DNA of 64,000 nt from Sclerodactyla briareus (Eukaryota; Echinodermata; Holothuroidea; Dendrochirotida; Sclerodactylidae): contig JAODTK010005834.1 of NCBI GenBank assembly GCA_026419785.1, positions 62,001 to 126,000 on the forward strand. Direction: 5' to 3'. Below the pieces are notes generated by a model. That model searched no databases. It was not told the DNA's origin and saw nothing but the letters and a program-made list of their open reading frames with translations. The position numbers were made by a program, and so were the translations under genes. Positions 5,000 through 53,699 of the stretch are shown here, in pieces. Numbering within the stretch: the first letter of the stretch is position 1; the number at the start of each line of letters is the position of its first letter.

Positions 5000-6190
5000 T
5001 ATATGTTTTCACTTGTCATCGCTGCAACAAATTATATGTGGTGAACCTGTAGGCGTTTAAGCGGATCGGTTCACTGAACACTTCCGCTCCATTAGGCGAA
5101 ATGACAGAGGTTTCCAGTCGCCCGACATTTCAACCCCCCTCCTCGACTGCGTCATTAGGACATTCGGGTGACGGGGATGTTATAGTGTAATGGTAATAAC
5201 ACGACACGCATATCGGGCAGAACCTAAACTCGTATCACACATCTGAACAATGCACCTAGCTGGACTAAACTGTGAATTGGACACTTGCAGTCTCTTAACA
5301 TTTTTGGCAGTTTCATTCGGCTTTTTAGGGATCATGTTCTCTTCTGGCCATGCAGTTTGATTCTAAGCCCCTTTTGACTTGCCTGAATGAAATTCAGGAG
5401 TAGACTTAGTGGTCCGACCCACGATCCTACTCTATACTGTTATTGGGTTTGTTGTTTGCTGCATGTTGATTGAATGGTCAGCACAATATTTCATCTGTGG
5501 TATGCGTATCGCACCTGTTTGCATACATGAGACAGTCTACAGCCTAGACCACCGTACAGTTTGCAATACACTTGCTTTTTCGGGTTATATAGGGTGAGGA
5601 ATGCCCACATGGAAAATACATTAAGTTGTGTTTGTCTGTAATTGGAACTTTCCGTCTGAAAAATTGGTGCCGAACCAGGGAATGATGTATAGACCGTCGT
5701 ATAGTATGTTATTTTAGAGTTGCAATATGGTACTCGAAAACGTAACAAATATGGAAACCGCCGAACGGGGCTGGCTGACACGAGAGGCAATGACCTGATA
5801 GTTCAGTCAAACAAGATGGCGTCACGCATGTGGAACTCAACAATGCTATTTCTAACTTTGATTATCGCCTAAACCGAGTGGACACATTGCAAAAACTACC
5901 ATTGAACCGTTGTTGGGAATCGGACATTCTGATGAAGTGAAGCGAAAACCTCTATTTGAGTAAGTTGTCCGCCTTATTGACAATACAAAGTATGAAGGAT
6001 TCTAATATTAACACTAAAGTAATAATACGCCTGTTGAGCTAAGCTCAGTGGTGACGGTAATATGGACTCCCTATCACCCTATGGCTTTGTTGTACGCTCA
6101 GCCAGATTACCCAAGTTGGAGTAACCAAAATTTTCTGGAAACATTGGACTGGCAAGGTTTTGGGACAAGGTTGAGGCAAAAAAAATTGGT
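5000..6190. other. No confident gene; possible LTR and primer-binding site
   Basis: No convincing coding sequence. TGGTGCCGAACC at 5665-5676, preceded by an A/T stretch, resembles the start of a tRNA primer-binding site of an LTR retroelement (these begin with TGG, complementary to the tRNA CCA end). It lies about 0.5 kb upstream of a gypsy pol remnant. I could not find a matching second LTR, so this stays a suggestion. Confidence 0.25.
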
Positions 6191-6194
6191 TGCA

Positions 6195-8166
6195 GTAGGA
6201 TTGGATCTGCATTAACCCAAGATCGAAGCGGCCAGGCTAGGATCGAACGCTGGAATATGCGACTCCAAGAGTATGACTTTGAACTTGAGTACAAGCCTGG
6301 CGAAGACAATCCTGCGGACTACATGTCCCGTCACCCGAGTGTCAAATCGTGACGAGCAGTCAATCCGCATAGTCGAAGCTGCGAAGAAGACATTACTTCG
6401 TAGCAGAACATTCAGTACCCAAGGCCATGGCGACTCAATGAATCAGAGAGGCATCACTTTCAGATGCAAGCTAATGAAAGTCAAAACTGACAATTACCCA
6501 ATACATGGCAGAACTGCTCCGCGATGTGTCGAGGACTACCGCGGCCGCACTTCGCCAAGCCATAACATTCGTGATGAGCTCACCAGTAGCGAACGGACCA
6601 TATTGCTCTGCCGTTCGCGCATCGTAGTACCAAAATCGCTTTAACAAAGCGTTCTGCAAAATCGCCTAACGAGGGTAATCAGGGACTCATCAAAACAAAG
6701 CAACTACTAGAGAGAAGGCTCTGGTTTCCGGACATCGACCAACTCGCGCAAGAACTAACCAGCGCTGTCTAGCTTGTAACGCAAAAACCACGAGTCGCAA
6801 ACAGGAACATGTCAGAGCATACCCACAGCACCATGGAAGATTCGAGTTTTTAAACATCCCAGCTTAACGCAACCGCCAACCAATGACGACATCGCGCAAC
6901 GGAAAGCGGTCAATAGGGGAAAAGGGGAAAATAAGGAGGAAAACGAGCGGAGAGGAAGCGAACTTAAAGGCATCGCAAATCAGGATCGGCGACACAGTAC
7001 TTGTATCGCACCAAGGTAAAAAGCTAACCCTACAATACAATAAAGTGGACAGCATCAACAAAAAGCACAAATGAATCACTGCCACAGGGGCGTCGGAGCG
7101 TTCTGAAAAGTGGGGGGGACACACATCGAATGCAGATGACCATCAACGGAGTAGCGCCCACCATGGCTCGACGGAAAACGGCATGCCAGGTCAATAGCAA
7201 ACATCTACATGTGTGATTTGAGTAAAAGACAGAAAAAAAATGTCATCGTGCATACTAAGAAGATGTACGGAAATCTGCACATGGTTGTGTTTTTTATTAT
7301 CTCACCTAATCTGGCTTTGTTTGCGTGGGACCAGGGGTTACGAACAGTCTCTGAGGGAGCGAAGGGAGAAGCCATAGGCGTACGGGATCACTGCAATTTC
7401 AATTTGAGAGCAGAAAATTTGTACCCGAATTTGACAAGTCAGTCATTTAAAACTACCGGCGCGCGCGTTGCGCGCGACAAAAAAATGAATGTTCTCCGGC
7501 ATTTTATTTGAAAAGTCTGCAAAAAAATGCATCGCATTGTTTTACTTTGCATTTCTTTCCCAAATTTTCCCACGCTTTCCAAATTTTTCCACGATTTTTC
7601 GCCGAATTTTTCATCTCAGAAAATGGGGGGGGGACAGTCTGCCCAAGGCTTCTGAAATCAGTGAAGTGAAGTGGAGTGAACAAAATAATTCAAGCATTAC
7701 ATCGCATATTTAGCCTACAACGCCGAAGAAAAAACACCATTGTGCGCGAAACACTTGAAAAATTATGCACTTTCAGCTTTTGATTCAAATTCGAGAACTT
7801 GGTATGGAACATGGGTAATCTTTCGGCCCTAGTCGGGTCAGATCTTCACCTGGGGATTGAACCTGGAATTAGTGGACTTGAGACAATTTCCAACGCCGTT
7901 ATTGTTTGGTTAGACAAACATTGAATCAGTTTAGAGTGATACAAAAAATCGGGCAGTGACTATTACTTTTTATGACGGTTCGGAAAAGTGGGGAGACATA
8001 TCCCCCCACTTTTGAAAGTGGGGGGACAGGTCCCCCACCTGTTGACGCCCATGCACTGCCACACGGGACGGACAGAAAATTACCAGAAATTTGTCATTCT
8101 TCAAGTTATTCAACCCCAGAGCTACGCTTAAACAAAAAACGAGGAAGCTGACCTGGAGGATTTAAA
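6195..8166 (+). pseudogene. Ty3/gypsy pol remnant: RNase H end and integrase, interrupted
   Basis: At 6229-6350 the end of the RNase H domain reads ARIERWNMRLQEYDFELEY, then KPGEDNPADYMSRHP, diagnostic of Ty3/gypsy. At about 6590-6770, in broken frames, comes the H2C2 integrase zinc-binding region (ILLCRSRIVVP, then EGNQGLIKTKQLLERRLWFP). The DDE integrase core is missing: the sequence jumps at about 6840-6880 to the C-terminal integrase part (IRIGDTVLVSHQGKK at about 6984). This stops at ITAT at about 7086. It resumes after a nested insertion with RDGQKITRNLSFFKLFNPR at about 8062-8120. Only a 3' pol scrap survives, with several stops and an internal deletion. No gag, protease or LTR pair is visible. 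Confidence 0.85.
7087..8053. mobile_element. Non-autonomous insertion inside the gypsy integrase, flanked by a 10-bp direct repeat
   Basis: CACTGCCACA occurs at 7077-7086 and again at 8054-8063, and the gypsy integrase frame continues from one copy to the other. The intervening ~967 bp is therefore an insertion that duplicated about 10 bp of target. Its ends match as short inverted repeats: GGGGCGTC at the left and GACGCCC at 8044-8050, the right copy set 3 bp (ATG) inside the flank. Near the right end are two back-to-back hairpins, CCCCCCACTTT/AAAGTGGGGGG (8002-8025) and ACAGGT-CCCCC-ACCTGT (8026-8042). Subterminal direct repeats of GAAAAGTGGGG are at 7103 and 7983. It has no credible ORF. 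A 9-10 bp duplication fits MULE-type elements, but the family is an inference. Confidence 0.7.
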
Positions 8167-19943: not shown

Positions 19944-22900
19944 TCTGAAGTTTGTGCAATATTTCCAGCCGTATTCAGAATAGCTCATTGACGTCAGCGC
20001 TTGGCTGGTGCTGGAACATTTTGCGTACTTCACTGCGTTCAAAACGTACTTTGTCATTTCGCAATGCCCATCCCACATACACAACAAAACATTGGAGCAC
20101 CCGAATCTGGAATGGTAATTCAGTATGTGCTTTTCTCTCTGTTGTTAAGCACCTGTAACATTTTTTTACAATTGCACCTTTCCTGTTAATTTATCAGTTT
20201 GTAATGAGTTAACTTTCTGGATTAACTCATCCAGCATATGGTCAGTGCTAGAATTTATGCAAATAGTCTAACTGATGATTCGTTCTTTCATAGCGCGATT
20301 TAGGAGTCTACCAGTGCAGTGATGTCAGGCCAGACGACCGGGAGCTATGCTTTCGGTTAGGTGATTGCATCAAGTGACCTTATGAGGTGTTTTATTTTTT
20401 TTCGTTTGCCCTAACAGTTGAATTCAGTGCAAAATCATGAGAAAAAAAAGGAAATTCAGACTTCGTCAGTGTTCGTTGCTAACATGTGGGATAGAGGGAA
20501 CCCGCTATTGTTTTTAAAATCACGCCTCAAAAAATCAAATGCAACACGGGGGAATCCTGAAAACTTTAACTTTAATACAGTGAGATCATGTATGCCTCAC
20601 GCGCCTGCTTCTATCAATAAACAACAACAAGGTCATAATCAAGATAGCACTCATATTGCAGCTATCATGTTTTCTACTGGTTGTATTTTTCAAGACGACA
20701 CACCTGATTGCGGTCGATTCGCAAAGTGCTACGCCAGGCAGCCGGGGACCCGTCCAGGGTTGCAGCCGCCCAGGTTTGCACCGTAAGCTACATATAGCGC
20801 TTGTGCAGTGTTGTACACTTGGACAGAAGGGTTTTCCTGCCATGCAATGCACTGTGTATTTACTGAATTGAAAAGTCCCACGTGTGTATGTACAGTACAT
20901 GCAGTGCATGCTTCACACGGCGTCAGAAACGTTTTATAACGTTTAAGATTCTAATCGATTTTTCCAAGCTGCGAACGGGGGGAAATAATGTCATCCAGGA
21001 CTTCATTCGTTCTTCAAGAAAAAAGAGAAAAAATAACACAGACAAGTAAAGATACTCATGAAGAGACATTTACAATTCAGAGATACAGAGGTTCGAGTGC
21101 AATTTGAGACGAAGATTCGTCGAGTTTTGGTCATTGTGGGCTGAGCGCGAGCGGAACCACAACAGTTCTGCCGAGTTTTCACTGCAGGAGCAGTTTCCGT
21201 GACGTTGGATGGAATCGCCAGTCTGCACCAACGAAGAAAAAACCCACAAACTTTCAGACCAACTGTCAATTGGATTTTTTTGCTGAAGGTTTCAGAATCC
21301 TCTATTCTGTGGAAACTATGGAAGCCCCCAATTCCGTTGATGAAAGTTGACGTCAATGAGACTGTTGTGTGTGGACACACTGAACAGGTAGTACAGAACA
21401 CCATTCTCTTGAAATTTGTGCAATATTGCCAGCCTTATTCAGAAATAGCTAGTGACAGTCCCGCTTTGCTGGTGCTGACCAGTTCTTCACTGCTTTCACA
21501 CGATACTTTTGTCATGTTCGAAAATTGCCCATCCACATACTCGAACAAAAACAATATGGAGGCACCCGCTCTGGATGGTAATTCAGTGTGTGCGGTTCTC
21601 TTGTGTTAAACACCTGTAAACATGTTTCTAGCAATGCACTTCTACTTGTTTTAAATTATCAGCGGGAATAGAGTTCCACATTCTGGATGTACTTCATCCA
21701 GCATATGGTCAGTGCTAGAATTTATGCAAGTCTCTATCTGTGATTTCGTTCTAGTATTGCGATAGGAGGATACGGGTGAAGTAGATTGTCTGGCAGACGA
21801 CCAAAGAAGATCCCGCCTTTCTGTTAAGTGATTGCATCAGTGACCTGAAGTGAATGTATTTTATTTTTTCGTTTATCTAACAGAGTGCCGCATCAAAAGT
21901 TGATGTAAGTGAAAAATCATGCAGAAAAAATGAAAAAAATGCTGACTAGTCAGTGTTCGCCCCTACATGGAGGATCAGTGGGAATCGGATATTGTTTCAA
22001 AATCCGTCAAAAATTAAATTGCAACAAGGGAGATCCCGGCAAACTTTTACACGATGAGATCGTGTAATGCCCACACTGGTTTGGACTTCCCTATTAAATA
22101 AACAACAACAAATGTATAATTCATGACTAGCCACTCATATTGCAGCATCAGGATTGGCTAATGGGTTGTATTTTGAAGAACGACCTGACTGGATCGATTC
22201 GCCAAGCGCTACGCCAGGCGCCGGCCCTGGCCCAGGGTTGCAGTCGCCCAGGCTTTGCACCGAACCAAATATAGCGTAGTGCAGTGTGTACACTGTACTG
22301 GGGTTTTCCGGTCATGCAATGCAACTCAATGTGTATTTACTGCATTGAAGTCCCACGTGTGTATGTACAGTACATGCAGTGCATGTTAATCACACGGCGT
22401 CAGTATTATTATTATCACTTGTTATAAGTTCACAGATTCTAATCGATTTTCCAAGCTGCAAACGGGCGAATAATGTCATCCAAGGACTTCCATTCATTCT
22501 TCAAGAAAAAGAGAAACTAACACAGACAAGCCGATACTCCTGAAGAGACCTCCTTGTCGCGCAGGCTGAGCGCGAGCGGAACACAGCAGTTCCGCGACGT
22601 TGGAATTGACACCAACGAAGAAGAAACCACATAACTTTCAGACTAACTGTCAATTGGATTTGCTGTGAAGAGTGATATGACTTTACCACAGTTACCATAG
22701 TCATAGTGTCACCAGAGTTAGTAACATGTATGGCTCTTTTGTGAAAATCCCTCCCAAATAAACCATGAGGGGGCTGCAGGTCGTTTCCTAAATTTGGTAA
22801 TCCCTCTCAAGAAAAAATATGAGAGGGACTTTGGTCACTCTCTGATTTTGAAAATCCCTCCAAAAGTTTTTTCAGGGAGGGATTCCATCCCAGCCAAAAA

Positions 22901-23450
22901 TCCTTAGTGCTAACACCATGGACCTTGTTGAAAGTTGAATCCCATCATAGGTTTCAGAAATCCTCTATTTGGGGAAACTTTATGGAAGCCCCCAACTCCG
23001 TTAATGAAGTGACGTCATATGAGACTGTTGTGTGTACACACTGAACAGTAGTACAGAACACCATTCTCTTGAAATTTGTGCAATATTTCCCAGCCGTATT
23101 CAGAATAGCATAGTGACATCAGCGCTTTGCTGGTGCTGAAACAGTTCTTCACTGCGTTCAAACGATACTTTGTCATGTTCGCAATTGCCCACAACATATC
23201 GAACAAAAACATATGGAGCACCCGATCTGGATGGTAATTCAGTGTGTGCTTTTCTCTCTGTTGTTAAACACTGTAACATTGTTTCTACAATTGCACTCTA
23301 CTGTTAATTATCAGCTGGAATAGAGTTCACATTCTGGATGTACTTCATCCAGCATATGGTCAGTGCTAGAATTTATGCAATATTCTATCTGATGATTTCG
23401 TTCTTCGTAGTGCGATTTAGGAGGCTACGGTGCAGTATATTGTCTAGCAA
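19944..23450. repeat. Tandem array of ~1.47-kb units (two full units plus a partial third)
   Basis: The same landmark (GAARTTTGTGCAATATT...CCAGCC) recurs at 19947, 21411 and 23071, spacings of 1464 and 1660 bp. Long collinear similarity continues through each unit: TTCATCCAGCATATGGTCAG (about 20228, 21700, 23345), GTATGTACAGTACATGCAG (about 20886 and 22360) and ATGGAAGCCCCCAA (21320, 22982). The longer second spacing comes from an insertion at about 22690-22930 in unit 2. Unit 3 stops at about 23450. Copies differ mostly by single-base indels. There is no convincing protein, and open frames across it are not conserved between units. A TGACGTCA palindrome appears at 19989, 21348 and 23010. A diverged, shortened relative lies at 48.4-48.8 kb. 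Confidence 0.85.
22690..22930. other. Insertion within unit 2 of the tandem array
   Basis: This ~240-bp stretch has no counterpart in unit 1 and accounts for the longer spacing. It contains GAAAATCCCTCCCAAATAAA, GTAATCCCTCTCAAGAAAAA and GAAAATCCCTCCAAAAG, three repeats of an AATCCCTC motif, plus the inverted form GAGGGAYT. This is a small non-autonomous repeat of unknown type. Confidence 0.6.
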
Positions 23451-31029: not shown

Positions 31030-32650
31030 GTACCCACAGGCATCAACGATTCCTCTCACAACAACACAATCAGAGGGATGGTGGTAATAACTAATGTGCT
31101 CATTTACTATCGCGCAATAGACAGAGACTGAGAAAGAAGCTGAATTTTATGTTCCTTACCCACGGAAATAAGAAGAATGGCAATACCCCTCTTCCTACCA
31201 ATGGAAGAGCATTTGGCGGATAAAGTATGCCTTCGAGAGCCATAGTTCAGCAGTATCTACAATGAAAAATGTCAATTTCAGATGGTGAGTTAATGGCACA
31301 TGAAATCCCAGTCAGCTCCAAGATCAAGGCATCAAGTTCACCGGTGCGTACCAAGGGGGAACACTGATCAGTTACAATGATACTGAGAGCTTACTAATCA
31401 CATATAGACCAAAGAAAGAGATCATCATGGAACATCAAGATCTGCCTGAGGACTTGTTGATAACAGATGTGTGCTCAAATTCATGCTGTTTCAGTGGCTC
31501 ATCTGCATAGTTGTTTTACCCTCACAAGCATCGATTGATCCAACGTTCAAATTTGGCCAATATGAATTAACCCCAGTCATATATCGCCATCCACTCCTGG
31601 AAACGAAACAGAGTGGAATGCCTACCGTATTATTGGGCCCAACGAAATAAAAGGTAGTTGGTTTCACAGCACAGCGGTGAGACAGCACTACATAACGCTA
31701 CGCATGAAGGCTTCCCTCTAGCCACAGGTCCGAGGTGTTTCCGTCATTTCAAATCCAACTGCAGGAGGATATAAATTACATCAGCATCAGGTTCGGGCAA
31801 CACCAGGGGCACTTCATGCAGTAAGTCTTCAGGTAGTGAACGAGACCACCTCTACCAAAGATGGAGTTTCATTATTTCATTGACAGCCAGAAGTCCATGT
31901 ATGATGAGCCATGAGAGCAGGCTGCTTGGTGGACATGAAACACAGGAATTGTGGAAATACATGAAGAAGAATGAGACTATGATTGATGATCACATGATAC
32001 AAAGGCAGAGAAGAAAGGCAGGAATGCCTTGTAATTCACAAGGTAAACCACTGCGGGCAAACACAAACCAGTCAGAGAGCCTCAATGACATCCTCACTCG
32101 TGGGGAAAGGAGGCAATATCCAAAGCGCCAAAGAAGAAATCAACAACTAGCAAGCTTTCGTTTGTTGAGAACATATGGGAAGAAGTTCCTGATCCCCACC
32201 ATCAGACAAATGAAGTGAGACAAGCTTTGTGTGGCATGAGTGAAGAGTTTGTTTTGACAGAGAAAACAGATACCTCTCGGCGACCACGAATGGTTTTCTG
32301 GAGCCCAGGTCGAAGAGGCCAGTATTTGAAACAATTCAACACACTAATCATGGAAGAAGTGTCAAGCAGGACACCCATTACAATGCCCATGAGCATTCCA
32401 CAAGCAGCAGCGAAAGTCCTTGACCAGATTTCACATCCAGGCTTCAAAGCATGGTAGACATGTCTAACAAAGTTGTAGAAAAAATCGTCTTCAGACAAAT
32501 TTCACGCACAAATCCCGGAATGCCTTCTTGTCGCAAGGAGTGGTGAAGAGTGGCACATCATGAGAGTATGATGGATGCATAGCTGAAGTTTATCTCATGA
32601 CGGAAGCAACAGAGCACCTCGTTGAAGCCATGTAAAAGATGCAGCAAGTA
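31030..32650 (+). pseudogene. MULE (Mutator-like) transposase, longest copy (copy B), broken
   Basis: Blocks in changing frames: the HGNKKNGNTPL-like region near 31160; NPTFEFG-like and TYRHP-like residues with a PTVLLGP-like piece (31540-31645); then GETALHNATHEGFPLATG and RCFRHFKSNCRR (31675-31770), the end of the catalytic domain. After that come the open frame 31880-32218 (LWKYMKKNETMIDDHMI, GMPCNSQGKPLRANTNQS) and SKLSFVENIWEEV, then QALCGMSEEFVLTEK (32215-32270) and YLKQFNTLIMEEVSSRTP. The first-D region (D/N-P-T-F-x-x-G-x-Y-x-V-T-x-x-T-Y-R-H-P) and (D)-G-E-x-A-L...C-F-x-H-F are those of a MULE-type DDE domain. Many stops and small indels are present. Confidence 0.7.
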
Positions 32651-32855
32651 GTATATGAGGACATTCATCGAGGACCATTCAGCGATTAGTATTTGCATGA
32701 TGTCACATTTCCCTAGCAAAAGTGTCAGGGTAGTGGATTTGGTAGTTGTTCGAGGGTTGATGATGGTAATGAGCCAATGAGGGTCGAGCATTTGATCACG
32801 TGGCATTGAATGAGTGACGTCACATTTTGAGTTGGTATATAGGGCTGTGACATGT

Positions 32856-33134
32856 AGGAGTTTGTCATTGTGAACTATCACTGTCAACATTTCAACACGT
32901 TTCCAATGTAGTGTATGTGAGGAAATGATGCCTTTAATGGCATACGTCGACCACTGCTAGGAGGAACAGCGTAAGAGATCGAACGTCAGGGTGCCAAAGC
33001 GGAAGGATACGCCGCAGGAATAAGCTCTCTTTGGAGCGGAGGAAGAAGTCCTCCCCGCCGACCAAGTCCCCAGCTGAAGCCCCAACAAAGCCTCCACCAG
33101 GAGTTTGTCATTGTGAATCTACCACTGTCAACAT
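32856..33134. repeat. Pair of ~35-bp direct repeats
   Basis: AGGAGTTTGTCATTGTGAA plus CACTGTCAACAT occurs at 32856-32890 and, with small changes, at 33099-33134. The spacing of 243 bp could mark the flanks of a small insertion or a short tandem duplication. Confidence 0.6.
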
Positions 33135-33487
33135 GTTGCAGCAGATGAAGATAACTAATAATATGCCTTACACCATTGAGGATGAGGCCGTCTGAGGGAA
33201 GGACGCGGTACAGCAACCAGTCTTACCAGGGACGAGGAACGACAGCCCCAGCAGCCACAAGACCGAGAGCCAGCCTGGGAGAGGAGGCTGGTGATCAGAT
33301 TTTGGAGCAAGTTTATGGAAATGGGAGGCAGCAGGGGAGGAACGAGCTTCAGCCCACCATCCAACGCATGGAGCAGCAGCTTCGACAGGCCCAGGACGAA
33401 CGAGACGGCCTCAGCATGCTGGTGGACTTTTTGACAGATTTGATCGTGCAGCTGCCAGCACCCCAGCCAGCAGCCCCACAACAGTGA
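33032..33487 (+). CDS. Coding-like region with a 103-codon ORF, unidentified
   Basis: The upstream frame near 33000-33100 is basic and proline-rich (RIRRRNKLSLERRKK, then SPPTKSPAEAPTKPPP). The main frame from 33176 to 33487 is basic at its start, followed by an amphipathic helix (QRMEQQLRQAQDERDGLSML, then VDFLTDLIVQL) and a Pro/Ala/Gln tail, ending at a stop. This resembles a small gag-like or DNA-binding protein of a transposon, but I do not recognise a family. It sits between two MULE fragments. Confidence 0.3.
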
Positions 33488-34225
33488 GCGTGGTTCGACA
33501 GGGCCAGTGCTGGCCAGTGATCTCCCCCATTGGCCAGTGATCTCCACCATTCGCCATTTACACTGAGAGGCAGCAACATCTCCTGCACAGACTGACATTT
33601 GAGAGAACCAGAGGCTATTCATTAGGAACTGTACCATTTTCCATCCAGGTGTCCTATCCTGGACATGTGACTGCGGCCTACTCTGTTGTTGGCCTTGACA
33701 GGAGCCCCAAGGGACTATATGATGTTCGTCCGCTAGGCGTGCGTGGAGCAGCTTAGCTGTCCCAGCCCCGACTGAGGGTGTGCTCTACCGTTGTGTTCTT
33801 CGCTACCCACTACACTGGATGCTGGCGTCGCCTGCTGAAACAGCTCGCATCAAGGAGGACAGCCATGCAGTGTAGCACAACTGGAAGTCGTGAGCTCACA
33901 CACGCAGTTTTATACTGTGACTGAATATAATGTGTTTATGTTTATTGTTTCGGGCCGTGCTTTTATGTTGTATCATGATATGTAGTATTATTTTATATGT
34001 TGGGGAGAGTCAGCCAATCCTGGAATAAACTAGTAAACCGGAGATTAGGTTACCCCCACATTCGCTTTTGTTGTCCTCATTCCGATAGACCACGCTGTAT
34101 TATTTATTATTATGTGGCACATATTCCAACCTGTGCAAGCCCCGAACACTGCAGCCCTGGACCTGTTATGAGTAGCTTGGGTTGCGTAACGCACACAAGG
34201 GTCAGTGACCTGTGCGACACGAACA

Positions 34226-35515
34226 TAATTGTGGAGAATCTGTACAAAAACAATGCCCACTTGCCCATCTGTTTCTCTGAAGCCAAATCTTGGCACAACG
34301 TTTATTAGTGCGGGGAATGTAGAAAACGCGCGAGCTGCTCTTTGGTCAATAGACCACAGTGCGAATCATGAATCGTGAGTCATACCAATTTTTTGGTGGG
34401 AAAATTTGGGACAGACAAGAAACGTTGAAGTTGAAGAAAATCCATTTTGTGACCATTGTACTTTAAGAATAGGCACTTGGTCAGTTGCGAGTGCTACAGA
34501 GATTTCATTATTTCAAGAGAGTGTTCTGTACAAAAAGAAATTCCTGAAGAGATATCAAACCAATACTACCTTCAATGCATTCTATGAAAACATGCCGGCC
34601 CACAGCGATCCATATTATACTCCAGGATAAGGAGGGGAAGGTAATAACTAATGTTGCTTTATTGCAATTTACTATCCAGCAATCTACAGAGCTTAGAGCT
34701 GACATTTGATGTCCTTACCCACGGAAATAAGAAGAATGGCAATACCCTCTTTTTTTCCAAGCAGAAGAACACTTTGGCTGCTCTTCGAGCAGGCAATAGT
34801 TCAACAGTTATCTACAACAGAATGTCAATTTTCAAATGGTGGGCTCAATGGGCACAAGGAATCCCAATCAGCTCCCGAGATCAAGGCATCAGGTTCACTG
34901 ATACAAGGGGAGCACTGATCAGTAGGATGATACTGAAGAGCCACTATGTACATACAGACCAAAGAGAAAGAGATCGTCATGGAACATCAAGATCTGACTG
35001 AGGAATTGCTGATCAACCAAAGATTCAAGCTGTTTCAGTGGCTTATTGAATGGTTGTTACCTACAAGCATCAATCCAACGTTCGAATTTGGCCATTATAA
35101 AGTAACCCCAGTCACATATCGTCATCCATTCCCGGAAACAGAACGGAGTGGGGTGCCTCCCGTATTATTAGGCCCAACTGCTGTTCATCTCAGCAAAGAT
35201 TTACCGACTTTCAACCGATACTTTCTTCGATCACTCGCAGCTGTCCTCAGTTTAAATAAAATGTAGTTGGTTCCACAACACAGAAGGTGGGAGAGCAATA
35301 TAATGCTATGCATGAAGGCTTCCCTCTAGCCACAGGTCTGAGGTGTTTCCCTCATTTCGAATCCAACTGCAGGAGGATATTAGAATACATCAGCATCAGG
35401 TCCAGGCTATACCAGGAGCACTTCATGCAGTAGGTCTTCAGGAAGCCTAGTAGAGGTGGTCTCAGTAACTCCAAAGATCAAGTTTCATTGTGTGTAAATA
35501 TTGACAGCCAGAAAA
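34226..35515 (+). pseudogene. MULE transposase, N-terminal and catalytic part (copy C), broken
   Basis: The first 200 bp repeat copy D. Then an open frame (34406-34630) has VEENPFCDHCTLRIGTW and LYKKKFLKRYQTNTTFN. Near 34640 it becomes collinear with copy B (GGTAATAACTAATGT, then CCCACGGAAATAAGAAGAAT). The catalytic region is well preserved: INPTFEFGHYKVTPVTYRHP (35070-35130), PPVLLGPTAVHLSKDLPTF with NRYF (35157-35223), and NAMHEGFPLATGLRCF, PHFESNCRRILEYI (35300-35380). At about 35515, inside GACAGCCAGAA shared with copy B, the sequence switches to something unrelated. So copies A, B and C are rearranged pieces of one family. Confidence 0.7.
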
Positions 35516-35689: not shown

Positions 35690-36700
35690 AAGGTTCTGGA
35701 TATTCCCTGAAACAGAACTGTGAAAACTGAAACTGAAAACGGAACCAACTACCAACCCAAACAGTACCGTCAGAACAGAAAATGCTGTCAGCAAGCTATT
35801 CCCGCCAAGCCTCCTCAAATCCTCCTCACATGTAAAATTTTTGAGTTCTTCTTTGCCAAAACACAACAGACAATTGAAAGGAATACTCAAAGCTCTGCAG
35901 TCTTGGAAAACAAAAAAGTCAAGGAATTCCAGCAATGAATTCAGCCAATGAACGCCTTAGAAATATTTTTTTTGATAGAGATATGAAATGTCAGAAATGA
36001 CATTCTTTCCTTGGTTCGTCGGCTAAAGTTCAGGGCAAACCTATTGTAAGAGTAATAAAGAGATCAGGAGAAAGTTCATTTACCCTACAAAGTCATGGAA
36101 ATTATTGCCCAGATTGCAGAAACCCTATAATAAAATGTTAGGCCAAAAAAAAAATACATGTTTAGCGTCCCCGCCCGCTTCCTTTTTGGCGCCCGCCTCC
36201 TTTAACTTTTTTTTTTAATTTAAAAAAGTGGAAAAAAAGTTGCATTTTCAATGGAAAAGTAGGTCATAGATGCCAGACCCTGACTTGTGTTCATAACATA
36301 TTAATAACAGTCATTTTGTATCGTCTGCATCTGAGTATTTTTTTATTTTTTCAAAGTCAAACTTGCTAATTCCACGGGCATTTTCCTTTTCCGGGTCGTG
36401 TTGTAGTAAACTTTGAGACATGCCCTTAACTTCCACTGTTTGCCGATCGATACCGCCTTAATGTATCGTACATTGCGACTGCAAAACTTGTTTTGTTTCG
36501 GGATATTTCATATCTGTACAACGTACAACAAAAATAGTGAAGTCCTACTAGTTTGTTCTCGTCAGACTCCTATAATTGAAAGCAATTCCATGTCTACGAT
36601 ATCTATATTTTTGGGTCGATTGAAGTTTTGATGAATAGGGATGATTTCCAATATTTATATGCCGAGATGTTCCTGGCAACCCTCGAACGCAAGTCATAAG
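35690..36700. other. No gene recognised
   Basis: A/T-rich sequence with poly-A and poly-T runs and no supported feature. A Lys/Gln-rich open frame (35720-35938) is consistent with A-rich composition. Confidence 0.5.
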
Positions 36701-37130
36701 TATGGATGTACAACCTTGCATTGAACGAGCGCGGGAATTACGGCACGTGCTAAAACCACGCGAATATCAAAGTTCATCTTCGTTCGATTTAATACGCGTG
36801 CTACATCAATGTCATCATGCACTCATCGGTACACTATTTTAGCACGTAGTATACGCGTACGAAGCCGAGTTTAGATCGATATCAACACATCTTCTTCCGT
36901 AGTGTGTTTCAACTTTATATTTTTTAGAAATATTTCCCGCTTGGGGCAATAATTATAAGATGGTCTTCGTTTTCGTTTCGATACGAACAGGGACAAGAAT
37001 CGTCAAGCCGTGGTAGGCTCGCACTGTGGTCGGAGGGAAGAAACCCTATGTGATATTTTCGCCGAGTTTGCGAGTGGGGAGCTTGATATGGAGACCCGAT
37101 TGACGACAAATACCAAGCTACGCCGGTGAG
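36700..37130 (+). promoter_or_regulatory. CpG-rich island with a possible first exon
   Basis: CpG dinucleotides are dense here compared with flanking DNA (for example GAACGAGCGCGGGAATTACG, ATACGCGTGCTAC, TATACGCGTACGAAGCC). A 55-codon open stretch without TE resemblance (36959-37125) includes REETLCDIFAEFASGEL and DMETRLTTNTKLRR. It ends at a strong splice donor, CGCCG/GTGAGTAG (37125/37126). The frame has a stop at 36956 and its only ATG is at 37088, so only the last 12 codons could be translated from this exon. I infer a promoter with a 5' exon on the plus strand; no downstream exon was found. Confidence 0.3.
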
Positions 37131-37479
37131 TAGTCATAGGCACACGGAAGAATAAACTCTTTCAGGAGTATCTTAAATTCATCGTGGGGGGTGGGGGGGG
37201 GGGGCAGAGAGGACCAGTGGTGGTATCCTTATTGTTATTTACAACGAAAAATATAGCCCTGGAGAAATTTTGCCTGCGCTTCGCAGCAGTACTGTGGTAG
37301 CCTACTTGGCCCTGTGCCTGTGTCAGTTTTTTTTTTCTTGAGAAGTTGATGGGGGGGGGGCATGACATGTAGGCCTAGTGTGGAGTAGGCTATATGACTC
37401 AGAATAGGCCTGCCCTACATGATCCATTTCAGTTTTTTTTTTTTTTCATATTCTTGATATTTTCCTCCAAAATGTTGAA

Positions 37480-38090
37480 TATAGGTAGGAGTTGATGCTA
37501 GGTACGACGTAATAGTCGTCTTGGGTAAGCTACATGACCCACGTCATGGTGAGTCTGGTCTCGGGTGTGATGCTATAGGGGTAAGACGGCATTGGCGTGT
37601 CGGTTGAATGACCCACGTCAGTTTTATTCTATTTATCTTCTTAAATGGCCATTTTGGTCGGGGGTGTGATGCTATAGGGGTACGGTGGCATTGGCATGTC
37701 GGTTGGATGACCCACGTCAGTTTTATTCTATTTATTCTTCTTAAATGGCCATTTTGGTCGGGGGTGTGATGCTATAGGGGTACGGTGGCATTGGCATGTC
37801 GGGTGAATGACCCACGTCAGTTTTTCCCTCTTAAGATGTTGAATCTGGTCGGGAGTATGATGCTAGGTACGACGTAATAGTCGTCTTGGGTAAGCTACAT
37901 GACCCACGTCAATTCTTCTTAAAATGGTGAGTCTGGTCTCGGGTGTGATGCTATTGGTATAACGTCATTGGCGTGTCGGTACATGACCCACGTCAGTTTT
38001 TGTCTTCTCAAAAAAATGCGGAATATGGTGGAGGATGAGATAGGTTGACGCGTCATTGGCATGTTGGGGTTATGACCCATGCAATTTTTC
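37480..38090. repeat. Minisatellite, about seven units of 70-100 bp
   Basis: Each unit holds ATGACCCACGTCA (at about 37537, 37607, 37706, 37806, 37898, 37984, and a degenerate one near 38070) preceded by a variant of GGTACG-CGTCATTGGC-GTGTCGG. Two units (from about 37640 and 37740) are almost identical over 100 bp. The block GATGCTAGGTACGACGTAAT at about 37495 recurs at 37860, which hints at a higher-order period of about 365 bp. Non-coding. Confidence 0.85.
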
Positions 38091-38399
38091 TTCTATACAA
38101 CAGAGTCTGGTTGGGGGCATGGCTAGGACCGCGCCGTTGCACTTGTCGGCGTGCCAAGTGGAGTTATCCTTATGGCAGGTGTATGGGGAGAGTTTAGCTG
38201 GACCGTCATGTTCTGTTGCAGATAGAGAGAGCGCTGGCATGTTGATTGTTCTGTCCCGTTCACTCTTCACAGATCATGGTCAATGTTGGAGAGTGAAAGG
38301 ACAAACTCACAGTTTCTGTGAAAGCAAGTGAGCTTGTTGAGACATCGTGAGTGTTCTTAGTCCACTATGTGGAATTACTATCTCAGACCCTGAACCACC

Positions 38400-40750
38400 T
38401 GCACCTCGTCCAGAGACTGTGAACGCCTTTGCGCTGATGATGGCAGGACAGCACCAAAGTGGGAGCCTCCCACCACCATACCCAGAAATAAAACCAAACA
38501 GAGAATCAAACTGAAAAATGACATTCTGAAGTGGTGCAGACGGAATGAATTGGCATGGACGCCCGATTCAATTGAGCAGGGTAAGCACTTCATGAGCACA
38601 TTGTCCGATGTTTTATGGGATCTTGATGGACACCGGGATACTCTGAAGAAATCGAGGTTTTGGGTTCCCGTCATGTTCGATGGATGAAGTACAACTGCCC
38701 AGAGAAGGGCCAAAACATCGTAAGAGGGCACATGGAAACATGGGAACATAGCTGATAACTTAGGACGTACTCATCATATCTGGAGCAGCAGTTCGATGCC
38801 ACCGGCCTTGTGCATTCAAGGAAGACAGCAAGGACAGACGTGGATGAATAGGAGATCTACTCGGCAAACCCTCATGATGACTTCTAACAAAGGCTCGCTC
38901 GCTACAAGGTAATTGCATGCTGTATTACTGCACACGAGCCATACACGCCTATCCTCGTCAACCAGTATGCTCCAACTGACCGACGACGTAGAATGGTCAA
39001 CTTGCAAGAACTGGCCTTCCCTAGCAAGACAGTGCGATACTCCTATACAGGGAGCTGCTCATATCTGCACTTCCTCTGGACAGTGAACGATAGTGACTCG
39101 GAAACGCCAGCCCCAGCAACGAACGACAACAACAAGAAGATATTAAAGAAGGATATGCCTAAATTCCATAGGTGCCATGAGCGAGGGCCTTCATGGCTCG
39201 TTCGGGAACGAACGGACAGGATCGAAGATCGCAGTGTGAAGAGAGGTGTATCGAGAGATGAGGAGACGCCTCAGCTGGATAGTTATCATCCGAATCGGAA
39301 GCGAAAGAAAGAATCCGCCGGATGATCGACCATGAGGATCCAGATCTAATTTGGGACCTTAGACTAAACAATACGAGACGACCAGAAGAATACCGAACGT
39401 AGACTTAGTCAACTGCCAAGAATTTTTTGCCAATAAACTGGAGACAGCAGTGGGGATGGACAGAAGGCACGATCAGTGACGAAGTGGCCAGGCTGTCACA
39501 CACCTAGCAATGGCAATGAGTGCAAGAGACTTGCATCAGAAGGTTGCAAGCGGAATGTGAGGAGGTGTCAAGCTACCCTCAGTTTGCAGTGGCTGCGTTT
39601 GCAATTCTGAACCAGCAGAGAAACTTCCGAACGGCACGCAAGAATTGGGGGAAGAGTCAAAAAAGAGTTAAATGATGGGTGCTGACGCAGTCAGAAAGAC
39701 CACTGGGATGATACTATGCATCAGCGATATTTTGTTATGAGAAGGGAATTGCTGTCAAATTTGTAACATTACAACGTTCGTTTGTCAAGGTGACAACCAC
39801 ACTGTAAAAGTAGGGGAGCCAGGAATTCTCCGTGTCAGCGGGATAGTGGCCAGCAAGTCATCGTTTGGGCTGTGACACAAGGTTATGGCAGTAGGAGACC
39901 AACGACTTCAAGAAGTTTTTCGCTATCGCGTCCGTGAGCTTCACATCAACATACCAGAAGATGGATGACATTTTGTATACAGGGCCAGCAGGTCCATGTT
40001 TTGGATTAAGGAGAACTGCTGTTTTGAGCCCTTGTTGCGCTACATGACACGCCTGTGACTCAACCGTCCCTGGATGAGGAGGGAAGACCAATCCGGTAGA
40101 ATGCCACTATCATGATGGTGGTCCAGATCATCCTTGTCCAATAGCATATTTCCTGTAAAGGAACTTGGACCAACTGGTTTCAGTTCAAACGCCCCCACAC
40201 CACAGCTGGAAAATCCTGCAGAAAGGGTCATGTCTAATTTGAACCTGGGCCTGCAAGGTGATGGGGTTGTCATAGCGAAGATGCCACATGGAGGGGAACT
40301 CAATCAGTCGAACATCTGAAGGCCTCAGGTAATTGGCCTAAAAAGATCCTAAAGTAAACGAGGAGTGAAATAGCATGCATCAGCCCTGATTCTTCTCGAA
40401 GCGTGTTCCGTAAGGCTCCAGTTGAAAGGGGAGACTTTTCGCAGTTTTTCGTGCGATTCAATAGGCGACAGTTGAACTTGTAGATAACCATGAAGAAAAT
40501 TTATGACGATTTTGATACCGGTATTGGGTACTGCTGGTATCTTCAAAAAAAAAAAAAAAACGAAACATTAAGCCTGACAAAAAGCTGAAGGAGTTCATGG
40601 CCAAGCATTGCAGACACGGGCCACTACCAACTCAGCCTGAAGAGTGGGAGGCAGACGGCCTGTGTGTGTGACCTCCCCAACCACTTCAGAAGTTTCCAGC
40701 TGTCATATATGAATAAGCCATCAATCTTGCATTCCAAGAGGTCAGTACTT
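38400..40750 (+). pseudogene. Long relic of an unassigned DDE-like transposase family (family U2)
   Basis: A single collinear protein in drifting frames. N-terminal: LKNDILKWCRRNELAWTPDS with TLSDVLWDLDGHRDTLKK (38515-38660). Middle: NQYAPTDRRRRMVNLQEL and VRYSYTGSCSYLHFLW (38963-39080), then NDSDSETPAPATNDNNKKIL, FHRCHERGPSWLVRERTDRI, and DHEDPDLIWDLRLNNTRRP (39325-39385). C-terminal: MAMSARDLHQKV, DNHTVKVGEPG (39790-39825), a second-Asp candidate HDGGPDH (40110-40135), ENPAERVMSNLNLGLQGDGV (40205-40270), and a Cys/His tail FMAKHCRHG plus CVCDLP (40595-40680). I remember the same order in large, repetitive 'uncharacterised' proteins of cnidarians and other invertebrates. D-G-G-x-D-H before N-P-(A/V)-E-R-x-M-S suggests a DDE transposase; I cannot name the superfamily. 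Stops and indels throughout. Confidence 0.6.
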
Positions 40751-40999
40751 GACCCCTCCAGGCTCCTGCTGAGAAGAGAATTATGAGGAAGCCAGCAGGC
40801 ATCTATTCTGGACACCATTGGCATAACTTGACCATCGACTGCTCAGTGAGCAGGAACAACTGGAGGAATAACATACAGTTAATCACCCCTCCTGCCTATT
40901 TCTCCAATTTATCATTGTTTATCTGTTATTCAAGTACTATGCCTGCCACTGTTGTCACTGAGTAAACTACAGTCACTGTAACCGTTCCCCAACAACCCC

Positions 41000-41800
41000 C
41001 CCCCCCCTACCCAAACCAACAACTCTCAGCAATAATGCAACTGTCGCTCAATGACTGCAGAATTCCACTCACAAGATGTTGAGTCACAACTGATTTTAGT
41101 GGTAATCAATTACATCTCGAAATTATCAACTTGAAGTGGTAACACTTTTTCACTCAGGTAACTGCAGAGGTTCCTCAAATATTAATGACATAACCATGAA
41201 TTCTCACCAACTACTGCATTCACCATGTCAGCCCCACATGAGCTGAAATGAATACTACAGCTGTTCATGACACACAGCCACTGGGAATGTCATGACCATG
41301 GTATTCCACCATTATCCTGCCTAATTCTCCATTATTATACAATGTATATATTCTATTCTAAGTTACCAAGTTTACTTTCTTGAAACCTTACAAAAATCAT
41401 CACCAACTTTTTCTACTTTTTTCACAACTGCTAAGAAGCACCACTCGGATGGTGAGCCAAGGGACGGATATGCCATCTCGAGGGCCCACCATCAACCCAA
41501 TTTAGAACCAGCCAGGCAGATCAAATCAGACAAGCCGACTGCCAATATGACTGAGCCAGACATCTCCGAGGTCATCCAAGAGGTGCAGCTGACCTTACAG
41601 AATACAGTGAGGACTAAGGGTATCTATGCTGGTGACGGATGAGCATCTAGACCACCCAATCAAAATTTGACCCTTCATATCTCCCTGGCTATAGTAGTTG
41701 TATAGGGGAAATTTGTTCATGATTTTGGGTGTCGTGTGGCTGTGTGTTCATGCTGTAGTGTAAAATATTGGAAAAGCTTGTGCTCGCATCCAAGGTAAGT
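41000..41800. other. No firm gene; possible 5' part of gypsy B
   Basis: A short open stretch near 41545-41640 (MTEPDISEVIQEVQLTLQN) lies upstream of the gypsy protease remnant and could be gag-derived. The rest is unremarkable. Confidence 0.3.
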
Positions 41801-41802
41801 GC

Positions 41803-42536
41803 GACACTAAGGGTGCACAGGCCAACATACTACCCGCTAGAATTTCAATCAACTTCAACTTCCATACCAAGTAGAGGTCAAGCTGGAGAAGTCGCAAATA
41901 GCCTCGTCGACAAGTTATAAGGGAGGAGGGGGTTAGAAGCCTGTGTTGGCTGCAATGTAACGGCCAATGTATTCAGTTCTCTGTCGCAGACACTGGGGCT
42001 GTTCTAGGGGTTTGTGCATCCAGAGACCTAAATTTGGTCAAGATTGTCATGGATGTGGACGAGAGACCAGAGGACCTGACTGAAAACTATGGTAATGCTT
42101 CCTGTGGTCTTGGTTGGCTGTCTCTAAAAGCCATATCACATCACCGTCGATCAAGCTGTCCACTCTGTAGTGAGTGCCCTCCTCCCACCCCCCCCCCCCC
42201 CCCCTCCCAGTGGCACTAAGAGACAAGCTCAAGCAAACGCTGGATGAGATGAAGACTCAGAATGTGGTTTGTGAAGTGAACCAGCCAATGGAGTAGGTAA
42301 ACTCATTCCAACCGGTAGTGAACCAGTGCCTGATACCAGCAGGAATACAAGTAAACATATCCAAAGACCCATTTCTACCACTTTAACCAGCGATGAGCCA
42401 GTCAAGGACATGAACACAGAAACTAGCAAGCCTATACCCAGCAGTGGGGACCTAACTGGGGATTGTACTCTACCCCGCTGTGGCCACACGAAGAGAACTA
42501 GACCTAATCGCTATGGTGACAACATTTATGGTTAGA
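41803..42536 (+). pseudogene. Ty3/gypsy pol remnant B: protease, start of reverse transcriptase, then C-terminal end
   Basis: Begins with a retropepsin-like active site, DTKGAQANILP (41803-41835; the usual D-T-G-A with one extra residue). The C-terminal part of the protease is at about 41975-42035 (VADTGAVLGVCASRDLNLV). The lead into the reverse transcriptase follows: VDERPEDLTENYGN, PYHITVDQAVHSV-like residues, a run of C, then VALRDKLKQTLDEMKTQNVV with CEVNQPME (42205-42295). At about 42310 it jumps to a Ser/Thr/Pro-rich tail ending TKRTRPNRYGDNIYG (to 42535), typical of a gypsy polyprotein C-terminus. The reverse transcriptase catalytic core, RNase H and integrase are therefore deleted. 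LTRs were not located. Confidence 0.75.
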
Positions 42537-42639
42537 CCCAATAGAGTCAGTTTATGGAAGGTCAATAAGTTGAGAGTACAGAAGCAGGGCAAGGCTAATA
42601 TTTATGACCTAACTATAAAATAGGGCTGAAGTATATTCA

Positions 42640-42900
42640 CATACTGTTGAATTGGGAGAAACGAGGCGTGACCACTGTATACATACACGGTGGTGTAAGG
42701 CTATACAAATTACAGGCATGTCCAGTTATCTACTGTGAGGGGAATGACCATCCCGGTTTTGATTGGCCAATGAGAGTGGAGGACAGCTCCTGGCTCCCAA
42801 ATGAACTTTATCACCCTAAAATTGTGGGAATGGACTGAGTCCACTCTTAATGAGCCCTTTGACCCAACAACTACTTTTGCACTGATTCTCTGCAGCATTC
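42640..42900 (+). other. No identified gene
   Basis: Open frames on both strands overlap and none is convincing. This may be the 3' untranslated region or LTR of gypsy B. Confidence 0.3.
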
Positions 42901-42924
42901 TCTATAAGCACTATGTATCCAGGT

Positions 42925-44028
42925 AACAGAAATATTCGTGAGAGGGACAAGTCTCTTGCCTGCTGGAAGTGTGGGAAGGAATTCCTACACCGTTAGTCCG
43001 CTTGGCCGGCAACGTTAAACATTTCACCTGCCCCGAGTGTGGCACTGTAGAACGCCACACTGCCGATTTTCATCCGAAAGGAGGAGTGATCTGGAAAGAC
43101 ATGGTTGTCACTCATACTCTCAAGACAATTCTTCAACAGCCTCCCATCGAAGCGCTGGCCGCGAGACCGGCCAGCTCAACAAGCCCAGAAGTGGTCACAA
43201 CCGCAGGAGCAAACGGCATGATTCTGTTGCGGCAGCACACTGAGCCAGAAAAACCGCATCCACCTCCCCACCCCAGGCCAATACAGTGGGGAACAACAAC
43301 CTTGGTGCCGTCAACAAGGTCTATCCAGACTCATCGGGCCCGACTCAGTCAGGAGGGACTCTTCCTGAACAGGCAGATGCCCCGACAACAGATGGATCCT
43401 TGGTGGGAACTTATTCCAGGCCACTGATACCCCTACCCCAGTATGCCCTTCCCTAAAAAAGACTCGCCCTGAGGTTCCAGTGGATGGGTTCCAACCCGTT
43501 GGACAAAACGGCAGTCCAGGTGGAAACATCTGTTGATACACTGGACCAACCACTAGGGGCCACTCCCCGCAGCGAGATATCCCGCAACTGGAGAGGACTC
43601 CAACATCCTGGGGAGAGGCCTGGAGTCCGAGGCTGACCCTCAGGACGTCCAGGAACTATTAGATTCATGGCCAACCCCTTTTCAGGGACAAAACAACCTG
43701 AGGCCACAGAAAGCTTCCAAGGCAACCAGACGAATGTCGACCAGCCAAACGTCCTGGAGAAATTCCTAGATGAGGTGGAGCTTCCGGCCAATGTGCCCTC
43801 TGAAACTGTCTCCACCTTAACCATGCCAAAACGGGGTCGGATATGGGAAGTGGTGGAATCTGCCACCCTTCCTGATGGCACTAAATATACCATAAGCTAC
43901 TGGGGGTACCAGCTACCGGAATACCTTGATGAGCGTGCTGGAATTTGTTCCTTTCATTGTGTGTGGAAATTTTTCTCTTTGTCTCTTACTGTTTGTGCAA
44001 TCCCATTTTCCATATACTATTTATACTG
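42925..44028 (+). pseudogene. Coding-like region with a Cys/His zinc-binding motif, probable TE protein
   Basis: In two adjacent frames: RERDKSLACWKCGKEFLH, then LAGNVKHFTCPECGTVERHT with ADFHPKGG. C-x2-C...H...C-x2-C...H-x4-H spacing resembles paired zinc fingers. A long low-complexity Pro/Thr/Gln-rich tract follows (to about 43430). Further open stretches then come, of which 43667-44029 is the longest and includes LEKFLDEVELPANVPSETV and IWEVVESATLPDGTKYTIS. The last 30 residues of that frame are hydrophobic and run into repeat sequence, so they are probably not real. A gag- or polyprotein-like product is the simplest reading. The family is unknown. Confidence 0.35.
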
Positions 44029-52318: not shown

Positions 52319-52610
52319 CAAGGCAATCATCCCCAGTGTCTCGCCTGGTTTCGGGATCAGTGGTTCTTTCCATCAGTCACCATGCAAACAATTCTAAGTC
52401 ATTCCATGTGTTGCTTCCAGATTTTACTATTGTCATTTAACAGAACAGCTTAATATCAATGACCAATTTCATTCATAGAACTCTTTTGACCGGTCTACTA
52501 AAGGAGTATAAGCTATGTGGAAATGTGACTAACATTGCCTACATTATGCAATTAGACCATACTACAACCTTCCATTGACCCCTTTTCTGCTCTCATTTCT
52601 AGTGCTGGAG

Positions 52611-52735
52611 GACTCGAGTCGTGACTCGGACTCGAGTCCGGACTCGAGTCCCTGTGACTCGGACTCGAGTCCGGACTCGAGTCCCTGTGACTCGGACTCG
52701 GATACTGATGACTCGGATTGAGAGGACTCGACTCC
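52611..52735. repeat. GACTCGAGTC minisatellite
   Basis: Tandem repeats of GACTCGAGTCC and TGTGACTCG in an approximately 33-bp period, each containing the palindrome GACTCGAGTC. It is inserted inside TGTCTCGCC element 4. The serine-rich open frames on the minus strand here are by-products of the repeat. Confidence 0.9.
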
Positions 52736-53699
52736 AACACTGCTCATTTCAAATATCCCAGGACTAATGGTGGAACACACTCATATTTAATATGTTTTCA
52801 TGAGAATCCAACAAACTAGAATATTTGCATGAATAGACAAATTATACACATTGAATAACACCCAGGGACTCGAGTCAATGTTAAAATATGGGGGGACTAT
52901 GAAGGTAGACCATACCAATCAAGCTTCATGAAAATCAAACAAATTTGTGAATTCGGAAAAAACTATGCAAAATTAGACACTTGAATGATCTCCAGTGACC
53001 TCCAGCCTATGTTAAAAATGTTGGAGAGTAAGGGTGAGCCATATGTTGAAAATGTTGGAGAGTAAGGGTGAGCCATACCCACCAAGTTTCATGAAAATCA
53101 AACAAACTCTGGAATTCCGCCTTTTAAAATATGCAAATTAGACACACTGAACGACTGTTGACCTCAAATCTATGTTAAAGATATTTGGCAATAAGGTAAC
53201 CCATACCCACCAAGTTTCATGAAAACCTGGCGAACTTCAAAATTATGCATAAATTATTCAAATTAAAAAGTTGAATGACCTCCAGTGACCCGAATCCATG
53301 ATAAAAAATTCAGAACCAAAGGTCAACCATCCCCACCAGGTTTCATGAAAATCCAAACAACTTTGAGATTTTGCATAAATTATGCAAATTAGACCATTGG
53401 AATGACCGCCAGTGACTCCAAATCTTTGTTAAAAAGTTTAGGGACTGATGGTAGACCATATTCATTAAGTTTGGTGAAGTGCCAAACCAAATCACTATAG
53501 CACCTACGGTTCATCGAAATCTTGCTAACGAGCCTGAACAATGAATTATATAAAATAGGCTAATTACCCTACTTAATTAGGTGACTTTCGGCACAAAATC
53601 TAATCAGATTGTGTTCACCCAACCCTGATACTACATAAAAAAATTCATCGCAAAGTGGGACACACATACACATACATTCACACACACACACCTACCCTG

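Follow-up and report, generated by a model that had tools for sequence, protein, structure and literature searches.

The window analysed here is a 64-kb stretch of the Sclerodactyla briareus assembly (319 Mb, also used for the genome searches), and it contains the relic of a transposase coding region on the plus strand at 38279-40678. Of 245 distinct proteins in our working family set (P0001-P0245), 227 matched the window by tblastn, and the matches at E ≤ 1e-3 were confined to this span, where they form collinear blocks of one protein family. When the 245 proteins were reversed and searched against the whole window as a chance control, no match reached 1e-3; at a cut-off of E ≤ 1 there were 82 rows. 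The first-pass annotation had described motif blocks of one family lying in a single order from 38400; that order was confirmed, and the relic starts slightly earlier than noted. The assigned parts of the relic are as follows.

38279..40678, plus strand: relic of the transposase coding region, with frameshifts, stops and a probable deletion between 38684 and 38759 (tblastn, 245 family proteins)
38279..38380, plus strand: N-terminal piece in frame 2, corresponding to residues 3-36 of P0001, with 2 stops (tblastn)
38469..38684, plus strand: helical region in frame 3, 45-52% identical to P0001-P0003, stop-free in the P0001 and P0002 matches (tblastn)
38759..39169, plus strand: NQYAPTDRRRR block in frame 2, about 43-44% identical to P0001-P0003, with 2 stops and N at 38960 (tblastn)
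39174..39260, plus strand: frame-3 continuation, AMSEGLHGSFGNERTGSKIAV.REVYREM (score against P0001 above shuffles)
39771..39821, plus strand: block of the first catalytic Asp (D1), TTFVCQGDNHTVKVGEP, with that Asp changed to Gly at 39789-39791 (alignment to P0001)
40114..40131, plus strand: block of the second catalytic Asp (D2), DGGPDH, with that Asp retained (reading frame and tblastn)
40212..40226, plus strand: NPAER, within NPAERVMS, with the catalytic Glu (E) retained at 40221-40223 (reading frame and tblastn)
40600..40678, plus strand: start of the Cys/His tail (KHC ... CVC, with CVC at 40661), comparable to HC and KKC..CVC of P0001-P0003 (tblastn)

The best match, to P0001 (E 7.6e-78), runs through frames 2, 1, 3, 2, 1, 3 and 2 in seven pieces: 38279-38380 (frame 2), 38341-38745 (frame 1), 38469-38681 (frame 3), 38759-39169 (frame 2), 39184-40212 (frame 1), 39405-40469 (frame 3), and 40298-40678 (frame 2). 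The pieces overlap because the frames alternate, and there are 15 stops in the frame-1 piece at 39184-40212 and 11 in the frame-3 piece. Between 38681 and 38759, P0001 advances from residue 139 to 200 (about 60 residues) across only 77 bases; the relic, therefore, probably lost sequence by deletion there. The window has no long open frame: 5 stop-to-stop frames reach 170 amino acids, the largest being 225 amino acids long. The D1 block TTFVCQGDNHTVKVGEP, an addition to the blocks first proposed, aligned with TCFVCEDDKHTIKIGEP of P0001 at a score of 72, compared to a shuffle maximum of 41, and the catalytic triad is thus broken in the relic by the Gly at D1, with D2 and E retained. Seen as a single locus, the relic is an unremarkable dead transposon copy, and it cannot be active.

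When the sequence is read in three frames, the proposed blocks are spread over different frames interrupted by stops. The Q-Y-A-P-T-D-R-R-R, D-G-G-P-D-H, N-P-A-E-R-V-M-S and Cys-tail motifs each lie in the frame that matches the family at that point. In contrast, the proposed C-H-x-R-G-P-x-W-L-V-R block is an out-of-frame artefact, produced by reading frame 2 beyond a frameshift. As a family block it was rejected, since frame 2 scored 18 against P0001, below the maximum of 37 for 200 shuffles, whereas the same bases (39174..39260) in frame 3 scored 46, above a shuffle maximum of 38, and matched AM..FG..TGxK..REVYR.

The relic pieces were joined with X at the breaks and used as a query, which returned 28 proteins at E ≤ 1e-3; the best was P0001 (E 1.6e-75, 33% identity, 88% of the query). 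A profile of the 28 proteins retrieved at least 358 proteins, and the divergent member P0025 retrieved at least 350, each among about 8,000 scored candidates. The best 120 of each list were used, with overlap between the full lists uncounted, and the 245 distinct listed proteins make up the working set. The relatives are 870-1,100 amino acids long, and the largest cluster noted has up to 390 member sequences (P0165). Most of the listed proteins carry no source name. Among the matches listed, the named mollusc sources include Mytilus, Crassostrea/Magallana, Ostrea, Saccostrea, Pecten, Pinctada, Mya, Mercenaria, Ruditapes, Dreissena, and Patella; other animals include Paramuricea, Priapulus, Holothuria, Patiria, Anneissia, Antedon, Ptychodera, Branchiostoma, and Myxine; and the fungi include Rhizophagus and Scutellospora. 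The expectation that the family occurs in several animal phyla was supported.

All three catalytic motifs are present in 218 of the 245 proteins, the remaining 27 including fragments, so that the triad broken in the relic is kept in its relatives. The core spacing is D..about 105..D..43..E, and the D2-E spacing is 43 in 216 of the 218. The AF2 model of P0003 places D537 on a strand at 531-538, D643 directly after a strand at 637-642, and E687 on a helix at 685-697. This predicted arrangement has RNase H topology: the first D sits on strand 1, the second D follows strand 4, and E lies on the helix that comes after strand 5; a second family model likewise gave a predicted RNase H fold match. The models agree with the earlier suggestion of a DDE-type transposase with D at DGGPDH and E at NPAER. 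Mos1 was the best fold match of the family core models. No ISAzo13 or Zator chains were among the fold matches listed, which carries no weight against a placement with those groups. Residues 1-96 of P0031 are predicted to form a ubiquitin-like domain at the N-terminus, and UFM1 is one of the nearest structural matches. To our knowledge such a domain is unusual on a transposase, and it would be the least expected feature of the family; by order, the N-terminal piece of the relic (38279..38380) should correspond to its second half.

The family is real, large, of DDE type, and has no name in the libraries consulted. Two Pfam scans, one of 46 and one of 47 members with 1 in common, gave no transposase match above cut-off among the families listed (25 of 40 in each), the precomputed Pfam column was empty for all family proteins among the matches listed, and there was no NCBIfam transposase match above cut-off. 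A PDB sequence search with the family profile gave 0 matches at E ≤ 1. In collections of viral and prokaryotic contigs, 11 and 23 stretches fit a pattern and none was confirmed as a relative; the two plasmid matches to P0017 (tblastn, E ≤ 10) were both unrelated. Searches of the open literature with the motif strings DGGPDH, NPAERVMS, NPAERIMS, and NPVERIMS, and with the terms DD43E, DD43D, DD42E, and DD44E, found no transposon paper. The claim that the family has no named superfamily is supported only in part: the core is weakly linked by profile to ISAzo13, the bacterial relative of Zator, and given that link the family may have a place among known groups at the deepest level.

The family core scored 36.5 against the ISAzo13 profile (P 3.6e-4), above all 60 shuffles, and a shorter core scored 35.6 against a shuffle maximum of 33.4. 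Comparison of the whole family with the ISAzo13 profile gave a probability of 5.8%. The best NF033519 match was 15.4 bits against a curated cut-off of 200; the best PF07592 match had E 0.14, in 1 of 47 members, and for branch 1 of the family PF07592 was absent from the listed families (25 of 40). ISAzo13 (TP36, PF07592, NF033519; bacteria and archaea) resembles the family in having D1 within D-x-K..VG, HDF between D1 and D2, a DGG-type D2, PP..SW ahead of E, and a D-E spacing of 42, compared to 43 in the family. It differs in that the scanned family proteins gave no match above the curated ISAzo13 cut-off and in length, mostly about 330-430 amino acids (64 frames, 298-794 amino acids), which would therefore be too short for the two added domains of the family. 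Zator is reported in the cited passages to resemble ISAzo13, both producing 3-base-pair (bp) duplications (PMC10045372), to pair with ISAzo13-like elements (PMC5718144), and to belong with TP36 in the IS630-Tc1-mariner group (PMC7386202, PMC8533490); it is set beside the family here by description rather than by sequence comparison. The family looks distantly related to ISAzo13 and probably also to the Zator transposons of animals; its likeliest placement is within the ISAzo13/Zator group or as a branch beside it.

We consider it fairly likely that the relic is the dead transposase gene of an autonomous DNA transposon whose cut-and-paste DDE enzyme belonged to the ISAzo13/Zator branch. In the living enzyme, the N-terminal and helical regions would bind the ends of the element, and the RNase H core would cut and rejoin the DNA; because of the predicted fold and the triad, we infer movement by cut and paste. 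The core would fall among the mariner-like DDE enzymes and there, most likely, on the branch that holds ISAzo13 (bacterial) and Zator (eukaryotic); the family would then be either a large sister group of Zator without a name of its own or a portion of Zator not yet recognised as such. More tentatively, the family could be a large eukaryotic superfamily of DNA transposons not yet described, DD43E, that occurs in animals and arbuscular-mycorrhizal fungi, derives from ISAzo13-like elements and has Zator as its sister; its transposase would have a ubiquitin-like start and a Cys-rich, CW-finger-like tail. Many predicted proteins look like transposases of this one family, some of them annotated as 'uncharacterized' in molluscs, lancelets, echinoderms, a coral, hagfish, and Rhizophagus. 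A family profile would reclassify them and better repeat masking, and the family would add a eukaryotic branch tied to a bacterial insertion-sequence family.

Other placements were weighed. The family could simply be the Zator of Repbase, unnamed here because the protein libraries used hold no Zator model; in the literature, Zator is the eukaryotic group connected with ISAzo13, and the two share 3-bp duplications (PMC10045372, PMC5718144). We regard this as rather unlikely, since the part of a mollusc survey cited here gives a low Zator count, 44 open reading frames (PMC10294476), against up to 390 sequences in one family cluster, and the cited section on a R. irregularis library, one built using a Zator profile, does not describe it as containing Zator (PMC11075540). 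Gene models of the family do exist in that fungus. Less likely again is Academ, an animal and fungal superfamily that is abundant among bivalves; its elements measure about 5.6 kb, and where they carry a nuclease it is XPG. Its host range and size are similar in the passages cited, being bivalve-rich with a mean of 5,565 bp (PMC10294476), found in several fungal phyla as AcademH (PMC10799480), and present in R. irregularis as Academ-1 (PMC11075540). However, Academ elements, compared here by description, encode a helicase or nuclease (PMC10045372), and within the scanned family proteins, neighbouring genes aside, no such domain was among the Pfam families listed. The mollusc and Rhizophagus surveys (PMC10294476, PMC11075540), as far as the cited portions go, leave room for the family to have been counted there as Academ or as unclassified.

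Membership of Tc1/mariner proper, with extra domains, would fit the Mos1 fold match and the resemblance of DGGPDH and PP..S..NPxE to DNxxxH and PPYSPDxNPIE of the IS630 set, but we consider it very unlikely. The D-E spacing is 43 in the family compared to 34 in all 20 of the IS630 proteins selected by motif, the relatives of the relic (870-1,100 amino acids) are much longer, and no Tc1/mariner Pfam family was among those listed in the two scans. Scores against IS630 profiles (10.5-12.3) also fell under shuffle maxima of 21.3-22.9, in a test of low power in which ISAzo13 against IS630 reached only 20.2. Two further groups were rejected on motifs between D2 and E: CMC and Transib, described as carrying C(2)C and H(3-4)H (PMC12730594, in part), compared to CxxC in 0 and H(3-4)H in 5 of the 218 proteins; and hAT, MuDR, P, Kolobok, and Dada, described as carrying C/DxxH (PMC10045372, in part), compared to [CD]xxH in 3 of 218. 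That the relic is a decayed domesticated host gene rather than a transposon is highly improbable. Only three loci were found in this genome, all relics and mutually unlike in DNA, and a 171-bp DNA search returned the window alone, as a host gene might give; however, family clusters have many member sequences, and the three catalytic motifs are kept in 218 proteins.

Tblastn with P0001 placed these loci, at least three in number, in the window, at C883:31-2598, and at C2448:243328-244194, with stops in all; P0008 recovered the same three, again as a lower bound. Within the extracted stretches, the second and third relics lie at 31-2598 (C883) and about 5332-6210 on the minus strand (C2448). Branch-2 protein P0166 gave 0 matches in this genome in a search that had no positive control, and a PF07592 search for ISAzo13/Zator gave 0 matches but also found 0 of 14 controls and is, therefore, uninformative. 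There was no DNA similarity among the three relics, the sole match between their neighbourhoods being a flanking repeat, and the element ends cannot be set from this genome for that reason. The relics either arrived separately long ago or are the remains of one very old family. Among the best 25 of 42 inverted pairs in 36000-43500, the longest were poly-G/C and poly-T/A runs and were rejected as terminal repeats because of their low complexity. One further feature lies close to the relic.

37493..38096, plus strand: tandem repeat of about 90-100 bp, several units, with TGACCCACGTCA exact six times, ending about 180 bases upstream of the relic

This repeat may be a subterminal array of the element or an unrelated satellite. 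Elsewhere in the window, long internal repeats at 19946-23449 and 31083-35445, with pieces 75-87% identical, suggest other duplicated or mobile sequence. Short tandem arrays of 33-34-bp units lie at 52610-52700 and 53004-53077, and the stretch at 52.3-53.6 kb has partial repeats in common with 16.4-17.3 kb.
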